DNA of 27,011 nt from a virus. Below the pieces are notes generated by a model. It ran no database searches and was not told where the DNA came from. It saw only the letters and a program-made list of their open reading frames with translations. Numbering within the stretch: position 1 is the first letter of the stretch; each line of letters opens with the position of its first letter. Made by a program: the position numbers and the translations under genes. The stretch lies in IMG/VR virus record IMGVR_UViG_3300020474_000084, positions 1-27,011 of that record, one strand, 5' to 3'. Below, in pieces: positions 18,370 to 22,651 of the stretch.

Positions 18370-19518
18370 TTAGAATGAAGAAGGAGCTGAATTAGTGACA
18401 TGCAGCTCAACAGCTGCAGCAGGGTTCAGGTAGTCCGCCCCCATCGCGAGTCGCCCGAGGATTACGTCTCCCTGATAAATCACGGATACGTCTCCACTGG
18501 TTACTTGTACTTGAGGACCGATTGCTTCTACGCAACCAGCAGCTTCACGCTGGAAGATAAGACCAGCAGACACTGCACCGAATTCGGAAGCAGTACCGTA
18601 GTCATTGTTGATGCCAGTAGTAGCACCAGAAGCATCTTCTAAGGCAGGACCAATGAAATCTCCGGTGTTACCAGGAGATGTCTGACCTGTAGTTCCACCA
18701 TACTTGGTGCCGTACTTGCCAAGGAACGGAATGTTCATTGACTTGTAGATCTTGATACCAGCGATCTCGATGATGCCGTTACCGCCTTGCAAGGCAGGAC
18801 CAGTTTCATCGCGATTAACTAGACCGTTTGAACCACAAGCTTGGATCAATTCATAGTATTGACGTGGGTTCAAGACGCCCACTCGTCCGTCACCAGATAC
18901 ACCCTTTTCATCGAGTGCAGCGGCAGCGTCATAAAAGGCTGCGATTAGTGCGGAAGAAGAGTATGCATCAGCTTCTGAACCACTACCAGTACCAACTTGA
19001 ATCTGTGTACCACCTGGCTCAACGAAGTTAGTTGCACTAACAGGTGAAGCCTCACGTGCACCACGTGCAATAGCACGGAAGATCAAACGGTCATACTTTT
19101 CTGCGAGGGCGTAGCCGATCTTGCGGCTGATCTCCGAACGCAGATCGTAATGAGAAAGAGTCTCATCAAGGTCATAAACGAACGCTGAACTGATCAGCAG
19201 GTCGTCAACCGTGATTGTCTTCTCTGCCACTGGAGGTGCACCATCGGAGTTACCGAGGATTGCGTTTCCAGGGGTGTGATACTCAGCCGTGGTACGGCCG
19301 GTATAGATGAACTGCAAAGACTTGCCGTTCTTAAGTGTACGCTTCATCACCAAATCGCGAGCAATCGCGTTATGCTGGAAGCCTTTAAACATTTCTCCAC
19401 TGAACAAATTCAGATAGAGAGCGCGGCGTTGTGCAGTTGTTGGAGACTGACCACCCGCCAAATTATTAGCGCCGACAATAACCTGATTGGTTGTCAGCGA
19501 TGAACTTTGATGTGCCAT
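18370..19518 (-). CDS. major capsid protein, T7 gp10-like
   Basis: A 382-residue HK97-fold capsid protein (T7 gp10A is 345). Recognisable segments: NLFSGEMFKGFQHNAIARDL, KNGKSLQFIYTGRTTAEYHT, PPVAEKTITVDDLLISSAFV, then DETLSHYDLRSEISRKIGYA and NPRQYYELIQACGSNGLVN; the same motifs occur in T7-like capsids. It forms the icosahedral shell around the portal. The gene is followed by a strong terminator and preceded by a structured 150-base leader; the absence of a Shine-Dalgarno sequence at such a highly expressed gene is notable, and TATAAT lies just before the ATG. No sign of a gp10B frameshift product was seen. Confidence 0.93.
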   Translation of the reverse strand: MAHQSSSLTTNQVIVGANNLAGGQSPTTAQRRALYLNLFSGEMFKGFQHNAIARDLVMKRTLKNGKSLQFIYTGRTTAEYHTPGNAILGNSDGAPPVAEKTITVDDLLISSAFVYDLDETLSHYDLRSEISRKIGYALAEKYDRLIFRAIARGAREASPVSATNFVEPGGTQIQVGTGSGSEADAYSSSALIAAFYDAAAALDEKGVSGDGRVGVLNPRQYYELIQACGSNGLVNRDETGPALQGGNGIIEIAGIKIYKSMNIPFLGKYGTKYGGTTGQTSPGNTGDFIGPALEDASGATTGINNDYGTASEFGAVSAGLIFQREAAGCVEAIGPQVQVTSGDVSVIYQGDVILGRLAMGADYLNPAAAVELHVTNSAPSSF

Positions 19519-19672: not shown

Positions 19673-19732
19673 CTATTTCTTATTCACAGTTTTGTTGTAC
19701 TTGTTGCCGCGATAAGTGAGAGTAACAGTCAT
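19673..19732 (-). CDS. 19-residue YRG downstream peptide
   Basis: A tiny frame, ATG 19732 to TAG 19673, encodes a basic peptide starting MTVTLTYRGNKYNK. The LTYRGxxY motif is the hallmark of short peptides that follow Downstream-peptide RNAs in cyanobacteria and cyanophages (and of the DUF4278-type small cyanobacterial proteins). The start is 15 bases downstream of the last pseudoknot strand of the RNA element, so ligand binding could directly control access to the start codon. Peptide function is unknown. The gene is short, but motif and riboswitch together make a real translated product likely. Confidence 0.75.
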   Translation of the reverse strand: MTVTLTYRGNKYNKTVNKK

Positions 19733-19746
19733 TGTTAATTCCAATT

Positions 19747-19797
19747 ACCTAGCCCCCGTTCCATGACTAGGCGGCATGCGTCCTAACGGATGAACGT
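19747..19797 (-). ncRNA. Downstream-peptide RNA motif (glutamine riboswitch class)
   Basis: On the minus strand, 5' to 3': CGTTC (19796-19792), TCC-GTTA-GGA hairpin (19790-19781), CGCATGCCG, CCTAG (1971x; 19771-19767 is CCTAG with its G at 19767), CATG, GAACG (19761-19757) and CTAGG (19752-19748). CGTTC pairs with GAACG to close the outer stem, the inner hairpin has a GTTA loop, and CCTAG pairs perfectly with CTAGG beyond the outer stem to form an H-type pseudoknot. This layout and the CGUUCA, GGACG and GGAACG sequences are those of the Downstream-peptide motif, related to the glnA RNA; both bind L-glutamine. It precedes the YRG peptide start by 15 bases. The likely role is to tie expression to nitrogen status of the infected cell. 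Confidence 0.82.
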
Positions 19798-19999: not shown

Positions 20000-21079
20000 T
20001 TATCCAATAGAAGGTGCAGTCAGTGCTACCTCAGTGGTAGACGCTGCTGCTAGATCAAGTGGGAAGTTATGAGCATTACGCTCATGCATTACTTCCATTC
20101 CAAGTCCCGCACGGTTAAGAATGTCAGCCCAAGTAGGGACAACGTGGTTCCCGTTATCGACAATGGATTGATTAAAGTTGAATCCGTTAAGATTGAAAGC
20201 CATAGTGCTAACACCCAAGCTTGTAAACCAAATGCCAAGCACAGGCCATGCAGCCAAGAAAAAGTGGAGGCTACGCGAGTTATTAAATGAAGCATATTGA
20301 AAGATCAATCGTCCAAAGTATCCGTGAGCAGCGACAATATTATATGTCTCTTCTTCCTGTCCAAATTTATACCCATAGTTCTGAGATACCGTTTCGGTCG
20401 TCTCCCTAACCAGGGAACTGGTGACAAGAGAACCATGCATAGCACTGAACAAAGCCCCACCAAATACGCCGGCAACACCAAGCATATGGAAAGGATGCAT
20501 AAGAATATTGTGTTCAGCCTGGAAGACCAACATGTAGTTGAAGGTGCCGGAAATGCCAAGAGGCATCGCATCTGAAAAAGAACCTTGTCCAAAGGGATAT
20601 ACCAAGAAGACAGCACTTGCCGCAGCGACAGGTGCTGAGTAAGCAACGAAGATCCAAGGGCGCATACCTAGCCTGTAGCTAAGTTCCCATTCGCGTCCCA
20701 TGTAAGAGTAGATACCGATAAGGAAATGGAAGACAACGAGTTGGAATGGTCCACCGTTGTAGAGCCATTCATCGAGACTTGCTGCTTCCCAGATGGGATA
20801 GAAGTGCAGGCCGATTGCATTGCTAGACGGGACAACTGCTCCCGATATAATGTTATTTCCGTACAGGAGCGATCCTGCAACTGGTTCACGAATTCCATCA
20901 ATATCAACAGGGGGTGCGCCAACGAAGGCAATAATGAAACAAGTAGTAGCTGCAAGCAGCGTAGGAATCATAAGGATTCCGAACCAACCGACATAGAGAC
21001 GGTTGTTAGTAGAGGTAACCCAGTTACAAAAGGCTTCCCAGTTATTTAGTTTTTGTGGTCTTGAAAGTACAGCGGTCAT
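20000..21079 (-). CDS. psbA: photosystem II D1 protein
   Basis: A full-length 359-residue D1, the reaction-centre protein whose turnover limits photosynthesis during infection; phages encode it to keep PSII working. All key residues are present: Y161, D170, E189, H190, H198, H215, H332, E333, D342 and the processing end at A344, with the C-terminal extension [15 protein letters not shown]. Residue 130 is Glu ([10 protein letters not shown]), the high-light D1:2-type choice. Five TM helices are expected in the thylakoid membrane. No intron. It lies in the auxiliary block between scaffold and capsid. The 107 bases upstream hold a hairpin and three TTACTTA repeats but no clear Shine-Dalgarno sequence. 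Confidence 0.98.
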
Positions 21080-21368: not shown

Positions 21369-21538
21369 TACCAGACTCCAGGGATAAGTTGACCAGTCAG
21401 TGCATAAGCACCTAGTGCTGCGATCACACCCAGCATTGCTAGGCGACCGTTCAGCTTCTCAGCATTTTCGTTATGGTTCACAGCGTTTTCTTGGATGTAC
21501 ATTTGCGGTTCTTTAGGCCATACTTGTGTATCGTTCAT
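21368..21538 (-). CDS. hli: high-light-inducible protein
   Basis: A 56-residue single-helix chlorophyll-binding-type protein. The C-terminal core AEKLNGRLAMLGVIAALGAY, then ALTGQLIPG, is the Hli signature: E-x-x-N-G-R-x-A-M-x-G provides the chlorophyll ligand Glu and Asn and a charge pair, followed by one TM helix. The protein would go to thylakoid membranes and protect photosystems from excess light, supporting PSII together with phage D1. It is coupled by TAATG junctions to the beta-barrel gene upstream and the 20-residue peptide downstream. Confidence 0.95.
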   Translation of the reverse strand: MNDTQVWPKEPQMYIQENAVNHNENAEKLNGRLAMLGVIAALGAYALTGQLIPGVW

Positions 21539-21882
21539 TAGAAAGAATATTTAAGTCCAGCCTTTGTTGCGTAGGAAGTATTGTAATCCCCAGTCATGAA
21601 TGACACCTCTCCATAAAGATCTAGGCGATCGCTTAGAGCTGTAGTACCGCCCAACTTGCCGGAAAGTTCCAGCTCAGATTCTGCACCATCACTAAGGACA
21701 ATGGCAGGACCAGCTTGGATATACCAGTTGTCACCTTCGTATCCAACATGGTTATCAATTACACTTCCGGAATAATCATTTCCAGTGTAACCAGAGTTGG
21801 CTTCTACATTGACGTATGGTCCAGCAAGTACCGGATTTGCAACCAGCAAAGTGGCAGGGAGGAGTGCAATAATTTTTTTCAT
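21538..21882 (-). CDS. secreted beta-barrel-like outer membrane protein
   Basis: A 114-residue protein with a strong signal peptide, MKKIIALLPATLLVANPVLA|GPY, followed by alternating hydrophobic/polar strands (YVNVEANSG, WYIQAGPAIVL, ESELELSGKLGG, LDLYGEVSFMTG, TKAGLKYSF) and a C-terminal Phe, the signal recognised by the outer membrane barrel-assembly machinery. I chose ATG 21882 over 21933 because the longer form adds a non-signal extension and overlaps the scaffold gene. It probably forms a small barrel in the outer membrane or acts in the periplasm. An exported host-envelope protein coupled to hli is unusual for a phage head-gene region. Function unknown. Confidence 0.75.
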   Translation of the reverse strand: MKKIIALLPATLLVANPVLAGPYVNVEANSGYTGNDYSGSVIDNHVGYEGDNWYIQAGPAIVLSDGAESELELSGKLGGTTALSDRLDLYGEVSFMTGDYNTSYATKAGLKYSF

Positions 21883-21904
21883 TGTAATAGTTAAGGTTAA
21901 TAAT

Positions 21905-22651
21905 TTAAAATAAGTTTGTGTTTGAGCGTTCAAGCTTGGCCATTACTTCTTGGCGGTAAGCAGGGTCTCGGTCATACCTTGGGTCTTGCATTGCGCTAAC
22001 AACCTCGGCTTGACTTTTATATCCCCTTGTTGTTTCGGTTGGAGCCTTACCTTGTACAAGCTTGCCCTCTACTCCAACCGAGTCACCGTATTTATACGAT
22101 AACGCTTGGATTGCAAAGTATGCAGCATTAACATCACCTGAACCAATGACTGAATCAAACATGTCAATTTCTTGATCGTTCATATTTTCATTAGCCCATT
22201 GCATAAGCTGTGAATACTGCTCTTCACCACCAACACTTCCTTTCAAGGCTTCAGCTTCCTCGTCACTAAGTGATGAGTTGGATGTACTATTTCGATATTC
22301 AAGATACATCTTTGCGAGTTCAGCCGGATCTGATTCAGATAGTTCTTTCAATGTATCCTCATCAAATTCATCGTTTTGGGATTGCTCCCAAAGTCGATCA
22401 AATAATGATTCTACTGTTTCATCTGTCTCTTCTTGTTCCTCTTCCTCTTCAGATTCTTCTTTGTCTTCACCAAGTTTTTTCTGAAGTTCAATATAAGCTG
22501 CTTCTAATTCTTCAGCATTCTTATATTTTCCAGCGAGCATAGTGTTTTGCTCTTCGGCCATTTCCTGGCCAATTGCAAGCGACTCTTGCTCATCTGCATT
22601 AAGTTCTCCCTGTGGATTTTCATCAGAGAGCATTGACATTACTTCTGCCAT
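21905..22651 (-). CDS. capsid assembly scaffolding protein
   Basis: A 248-residue, highly acidic and helical protein (T7 gp9 is 307). Visible are an N-terminal Glu/Gln-rich region (NADEQESLAIGQEMAEEQNT), the AGKYKNAEELEAAYIELQKKL motif widespread in T7-like scaffolds, a long Glu run, and a basic C-terminal part (YRQEVMAKLERSNTNLF) that would contact the capsid protein. It directs procapsid assembly and leaves before packaging. It lies between the portal and the auxiliary cassette; in T7 it would be followed directly by the capsid gene. Confidence 0.87.
   Translation of the reverse strand: MAEVMSMLSDENPQGELNADEQESLAIGQEMAEEQNTMLAGKYKNAEELEAAYIELQKKLGEDKEESEEEEEQEETDETVESLFDRLWEQSQNDEFDEDTLKELSESDPAELAKMYLEYRNSTSNSSLSDEEAEALKGSVGGEEQYSQLMQWANENMNDQEIDMFDSVIGSGDVNAAYFAIQALSYKYGDSVGVEGKLVQGKAPTETTRGYKSQAEVVSAMQDPRYDRDPAYRQEVMAKLERSNTNLF

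Follow-up and report, generated by a model that had tools for sequence, protein, structure and literature searches.

The window, by which we mean the whole 27,011-base stretch of DNA analyzed here, from a virus of ocean cyanobacteria, carries on its minus strand a glutamine-II riboswitch followed by a short ORF for a peptide with a YRG motif. We favor a model, with a probability of roughly 0.55, wherein the riboswitch controls translation of this host-like peptide as an ON switch that operates through two additional helices (P3 and P0), and wherein the peptide acts on host nitrogen metabolism. Sequence and covariation identify the element as a genuine representative of this already known riboswitch class, and the synteny shows that T7-like cyanophages carry the riboswitch-YRG unit as a regular part of their genomes.

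The riboswitch, its peptide, and its genomic placement

A cmscan search with all 4227 Rfam families yielded a sole match in the whole window. This match is to RF01704 (the glutamine-II riboswitch, formerly named Downstream-peptide), and its score of 50.9 bits (E = 9e-10) lies above the gathering cut-off of 33 bits and well outside what chance would produce. The match is full-length (model positions 1-60), spans positions 19799-19747 of the minus strand, and represents the single RF01704 copy in this virus contig. A first-pass annotation of the letters alone had assigned the element to this family, had noted the YRG peptide downstream, and had proposed a search with covariance models. The assignment is borne out by cmscan and by relatives of the window sequence, and no match to RF01739 (glnA) was obtained.

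All sequence and structural hallmarks of the glutamine-II class are present in the window. These are hairpin P1 (UCC-GUUA-GGA, 19790-19781), helix P2 (CCUAG/CUAGG, 19771-19767 with 19752-19748, extended by 19766-19765 with 19754-19753), the crossing pseudoknot helix PK (CGUUC/GAACG, 19796-19792 with 19761-19757), and the conserved sequences CGUUCA, CGCA, and GGAACGGG. The three paired elements, the 15-base spacer (19747-19733), and the ATG at 19732 that opens 19 codons had all been recognized in the first-pass annotation, and each is found at its minus-strand position. The annotation was also right that two of the helices cross, but its labels were swapped. CGTTC/GAACG, which it had called the outer stem, is the ligand-binding helix PK of the glutamine-II crystal structure, whereas CCTAG/CTAGG, which it had called the pseudoknot, is the hairpin helix P2 (PMC6698751).

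PK exhibits no variation on either strand in 38 aligned copies, and evidence of covariation in relatives supports P1 and P2. Among the matches listed, 124 distinct phage copies have P1 pairs that are 95-99% paired and that covary, and standard pairing at P1 and in the center of P2 stands at 95-100%, accompanied by numerous compensatory changes. Covariation is strong in P2, where a single pair reaches six pair types. The named structure, counted with P0 and P3 included, has 116 cells changed on both sides in the 38-sequence alignment, compared with 37 in shuffles. Because the ligand-site sequences are kept and covariation is strong, the aptamer is under selection as an aptamer, right beside the helix that carries the ribosome binding site (RBS). 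Members of the family bind L-glutamine (PMC6698751, PMC6316151), and by analogy the window aptamer is expected to sense the same ligand.

The associated ORF (MTVTLTYRGNKYNKTVNKK, 19732-19673 on the minus strand, stop included) begins 15 bases past P2 and has 19 codons. Its motif, YRGNKY, conforms to the pattern YRGxxY, and an identical peptide is encoded in L062. Among the matches listed, a YRG ORF is located downstream of 134 of 139 phage or viral copies, and of the five others, four are truncated where their contigs end and L017 has a broken frame. The peptides in these matches fall into two length classes, a short class of mostly 13-20 residues and a long class of mostly 33-38. Variation is concentrated at the third base of codons, and this holds at several positions that played no part in selecting the ORFs. 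This coding pattern shows that the peptide is real, and it is conserved mainly as a protein sequence.

The window peptide, lengthened in frame by four residues because 19 is too short for the search tool, scores 15.3 bits for DUF4278 (PF14105) and is not filed as a member because the curated cut-off is 25.3 bits. Another, long phage peptide of the same unit scores 29.9 bits, and host proteins encoded behind the same riboswitch (e.g. L206) reach 42.9 bits. In the glutamine synthetase inactivating factor IF17, the N-terminal part consists of DUF4278 (PMC6316151). The YRG peptide is host-like, corresponding to one repeat of the DUF4278 proteins that are regulated by glutamine riboswitches in hosts. 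PirA was also considered as an analogue of the peptide, and was dropped because this protein is absent from marine picocyanobacteria (PMC8092223).

In the window, the riboswitch is preceded by psbA, which codes for D1 (20000-21079, minus), and by a 61-residue ORF, and it is followed by the capsid leader and then by the major capsid protein gene (18370-19518, minus), whose counterparts in the corresponding position of relatives are annotated as capsid protein. The same gene order is found in P-SSP7, P-SSP3, S-RIP2, P-GSP1, NATL1A-7, S-RIP1, S-CBP1, S-CBP4, S-TIP37, and others. The earlier observation that nothing else stands between the unit and the capsid leader holds for the window, and this placement is conserved across T7-like cyanophages.

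Of 16 related phage loci, 14 have an RF01704 match of 36.6-59.2 bits at the same place, and the model has no match in the loci of S-B28 and S-SBP1. S-B28 is without the riboswitch, and S-SBP1 has the aptamer sequence with a long insert in P1. This insert (L007:1330-1540) contains an annotated 54-residue ORF (1345-1509) that sits in the P1 loop, with its start and stop both inside the stem strands UCUAUG/CAUAGA of P1, and this explains the missing Rfam match. Exactly one copy is present in five of six complete genomes tested, the exception again being S-B28 with zero. A pattern scan of virus contigs uncovered at least 120 stretches, and because the scan was built on the phage-type loop CATGGAACGGGG, this collection is a sample rather than a census. 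Among the matches listed, which include named phages and contigs, the capsid gene is just downstream in 118 of the 123 copies that have at least 400 nt of downstream sequence, and psbA is upstream in 98 of 138. The riboswitch is mostly without annotation in the records of related phages. The presence of a near-fixed and largely unannotated glutamine-sensing unit beside psbA and the capsid gene, including in the model phage P-SSP7, makes it testable whether these phages read the nitrogen state of the host during infection.

Several neighboring features were also observed. Upstream of psbA, the window carries a secreted or porin-like ORF (21538-21933; ..AGPYVNVE..GKLGG..KYSF) that by eye matches the ORF located directly behind the YRG peptide in P-SSP10 (L008:1693-1998) and NATL1A-7 (L009:1612-1968). 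Since this ORF stands elsewhere in those two phages, gene order around the switch has been reshuffled. In several phages (L004, L006, and L017), the stretch from the YRG ORF to the capsid leader encodes a small CxxC protein (..FKRCGxCGDxKPxCRKQKKCLKGLL). Glutamine-II-like elements with YRG-type ORFs also occur in unrelated bacterial bins, namely a Dehalococcoidia MAG (L257), which seems to carry two such elements in tandem, and a Porticoccaceae MAG (L270), which looks like misbinned phage DNA.

Predicted helices involving the peptide codons

The first of the two additional helices, P3, is an RBS hairpin that pairs the linker (19749-19733) with codons of the peptide (19727-19711) on the minus strand. 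In the window, its stem includes the Shine-Dalgarno (SD)-like sequence UUGGAA and its loop includes the AUG (19732-19730), and its first two G nucleotides (19749 and 19748) also form the two outermost pairs of P2. In the family, P3 pairs the linker that follows P2 (GGUAUAU, GGUACU, and variants) with codons ending in the Tyr of YRG, and the hairpin encloses both the SD and the AUG. P3 cells are paired in 89.1% of cases, and the covariation score is 0.349, compared with 0.131 when shuffled and at most 0.125 for slid registers. Where the nucleotide following GGUA faces the one preceding Tyr, the combinations are U-A (19), C-G (12), G-C (2), A-U (1), and G-U (1). When mapped on a capsid-protein tree, the linker C/T and the base before Tyr differ in the same direction in 10 of 10 independent pairs (sign test p 0.002), and a control in the same test does not behave in this way.

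Codon choice agrees with this arrangement. Lys before Tyr is encoded by AAG in 34 of 35 Lys cases, compared with AAA in 51 of 67 for the Lys codon seven positions after that Tyr. The AAG preference fits P3 because pairing with C requires it. In the short class, the linkers clearly bind their own partners better than permuted ones. The signal is weak in the long class (z -1.8, no stronger than one control), and none is seen in host copies (z 0.0). Some long-peptide phages have no clear SD and carry a different helix before the AUG (UUCGUAC/GUACGAA). Covariation and the tree test establish P3 at the level of the family.

The second helix, P0, is an outer helix that joins the 5′ flank of the aptamer to codons at or beside YRG. 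In most relatives, the sequence abutting the aptamer on its 5′ side, often CCACG, is joined to the Arg-Gly codons (CGUGG). The window version, common to the window and L062, would pair GUACUU (19803-19798) with AAGUAC (19702-19697), which represents the Lys-Tyr codons after YRG. An alternative that is stronger in the window alone pairs 19819-19807 with 19717-19704 (-14.9 kcal/mol, own partner in the top 2%); both versions are on the minus strand.

The flanks of P0 have better energies with their own codons than with permuted partners in both the short and the long class, down to 65% clustering. Permutation of nearby controls in the short class, namely the far flank and the sequence after YRG, gives nothing. 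There are 16 P0 cells changed on both sides versus 6.9 in shuffles, and at flank positions -5 and -8, which are the predicted registers, there is covariation with the synonymous third bases of the Arg and Gly codons (z 2.3 and 2.8). A phylogeny-aware test on the capsid-protein tree falls short of significance (4.6 versus 1.0 pairs, p 0.22), and other P0 pairs run in the same direction (2.4 versus 0 and 3.8 versus 0.4) in numbers too few for significance. A weak P0-like signal is present among 10 representative host copies (p 0.03). Taken as a whole, these comparisons support P0, less strongly than they do P3.

RNAalifold recovers P1 and P2 from the 38-sequence alignment and does not recover P0 and P3, probably because the linker columns are gappy. 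Therefore, P0 and P3 were tested by permutation, by counts on the named structure, and on the tree. The window representative is not among the strongest, as its P3 and P0 are weaker than those of P-SSP7-type phages and its SD-like UUGGAA is weak. Its P3 fold has a predicted energy of -4.8 kcal/mol (z -0.89). Folding the window alone gives hairpins whose stability does not exceed that of shuffled sequence (z -0.9 to -0.3), and P0 does not reach significance in this test. The argument for this copy is carried over from the family level.

These patterns suggest, at what we judge to be even odds, that T7-like cyanophages use the Y-R-G codons of the peptide as a switching strand. The linker and the 5′ flank would pair with these codons to hide the start site, and the ORF would be under dual selection as a peptide and as an RNA platform, making the unit a phage-specific redesign of a host riboswitch. 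If true, such a codon-based platform would provide a mechanism for translation control by the glutamine-II class in phages, and would explain the constraint on codon choice in this tiny ORF.

Proposed switching and the adjacent capsid gene

In the favored ON model, the linker would pair in the absence of glutamine with the codons up to the Tyr of YRG, such that P3 holds the SD-like region and the AUG in a hairpin and P0 secures this glutamine-free fold. Glutamine would stabilize PK and hence P2, which would reclaim the two G nucleotides (19749 and 19748) that close P3. P3 would then open, expose the start site, and permit synthesis of the peptide. The product might act on host nitrogen metabolism when glutamine is plentiful in infection, with glutamine synthetase being the obvious candidate. 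We infer the direction of switching, the competition between P2 and P3, and the function of the peptide; glutamine is proposed to favor P2 and open P3 because the two helices share these G nucleotides. This overlap consists of only two nearly invariant positions, and so covariation cannot prove the competition. The ON direction is in line with a host-type element, the type 2 riboswitch of Prochlorococcus, which activates expression with glutamine (PMC6316151), and release of an occluded RBS has been proposed from the crystal structure (PMC6698751). Glutamine gating of the peptide itself, which had been raised in the first-pass annotation, is the best reading.

The opposite outcome, in which glutamine stabilizes P3 along with a stacked P0-PK-P2 arrangement so that the peptide is repressed under nitrogen-rich conditions, seems unlikely. 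The bound state could have P0 stacked on PK, from which it is separated by 0-2 nt, and the long-peptide class has a 7-bp helix that ends two bases before the AUG. However, the activating Prochlorococcus element is the one type 2 riboswitch tested, and the G nucleotides common to P3 and P2 also argue against an OFF switch.

Equally doubtful is the proposal that P0 and P3 are a glutamine-independent structure for translation or stability of the YRG cistron, with the aptamer merely residing inside. Covariation indicates that these helices form, not that they switch. Moreover, computed RBS accessibility is unaffected by the state of the aptamer, with means of 0.43 bound and 0.42 free (12 copies up, 4 down) in nested folds that have no pseudoknot energies; the values for the window from the same type of fold are 0.60 and 0.45. 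Yet the conserved ligand-site sequences and strong covariation of an aptamer placed beside the RBS helix run counter to this proposal.

It is highly improbable that the switch gates transcription into the capsid message by read-through or attenuation, as the first-pass annotation had also suggested, because, although almost every copy among the matches listed has the unit immediately ahead of the capsid leader, there is no terminator-like site between the riboswitch and the capsid start, the riboswitch and the capsid gene are anywhere from about 220 to more than 1,300 nt apart among these matches, S-B28 has the leader without the riboswitch, and the leader has its own conserved RNA structure. 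A transcription-termination mechanism was rejected for lack of a terminator-like site in 19830-19519, and the only strong site of this kind on the minus strand (18353-18334) comes after the capsid gene. The features listed in the first-pass annotation are confirmed, and its interpretation is partly supported.

The capsid-leader RNA (19665-19581, minus) is separate from the switch and consists of a T-arm-like hairpin (19665-19647) followed by a core (19640-19581). Its parts include a GGCN/NGCC stem, a UACG-type hairpin, a GUCUAGAC hairpin, and an invariant GGUGGGAUAGACC hairpin. This structure is supported by covariation, including at the closing pair, which is U-A in 13, A-U in 8, and G-C in 3 of 28 aligned copies. 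The leader has no Rfam match in the window or in related loci. A pattern search gave 126 matches in the loci examined, and the riboswitch is also present in 52 of 63 leader-bearing contigs that have 1.8 kb of upstream sequence, L167 being a chance match.

The T-arm-like hairpin (GCCGGGUUCAAGUCCCGGC) is located directly before the leader core. The same spot is occupied by a complete tRNA-Gly in NATL1A-7 (L009:2717-2787) and by a GGCACCUCAGAGUCGGACC hairpin in other phages. The T-arm-like hairpin could be a tRNA remnant or a processing signal. A reading of 19665-19647 as a tRNA or tmRNA was rejected, as ARAGORN finds neither in the window, and the only Rfam trace of this piece in related loci is a 14-bit T-arm scrap in S-RIP1.

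Relation to known glutamine riboswitches

Public descriptions of the Downstream-peptide motif mention a phage. The family is already known, as are its ligand and its link with YRG peptides (PMC2864571), and the main text of this 2010 motif paper indicates that an additional file points to regulation in which the conserved peptide takes part (PMC2864571). P0 and P3 may therefore have been anticipated in that file. In the open-access papers examined, we found neither the T7-like cyanophage unit nor codon pairing as an expression platform described.

Glutamine-I (glnA, RF01739) RNAs, which are associated with gifB and with ssrA of phage Melnitz, also sense glutamine and also occur in marine phages (PMC9004378). 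However, they form a three-way junction rather than a pseudoknot and control other genes, and this family is not represented in the window. The YRGxxY pattern is common to the window peptide and to DUF4278 proteins of the Prochlorococcus PMM1846 type (PF14105), whereas the former has a single YRG unit in 19 residues. The window element has the same aptamer sequence, P1-PK-P2 fold, and place before a short YRG ORF as the glutamine-II or type 2 switch (RF01704). Compared with host RF01704 copies, the phage unit is distinguished by its position between psbA and the capsid gene, and by a linker and a flank that pair with codons, clearly so for P3 and more weakly for P0.
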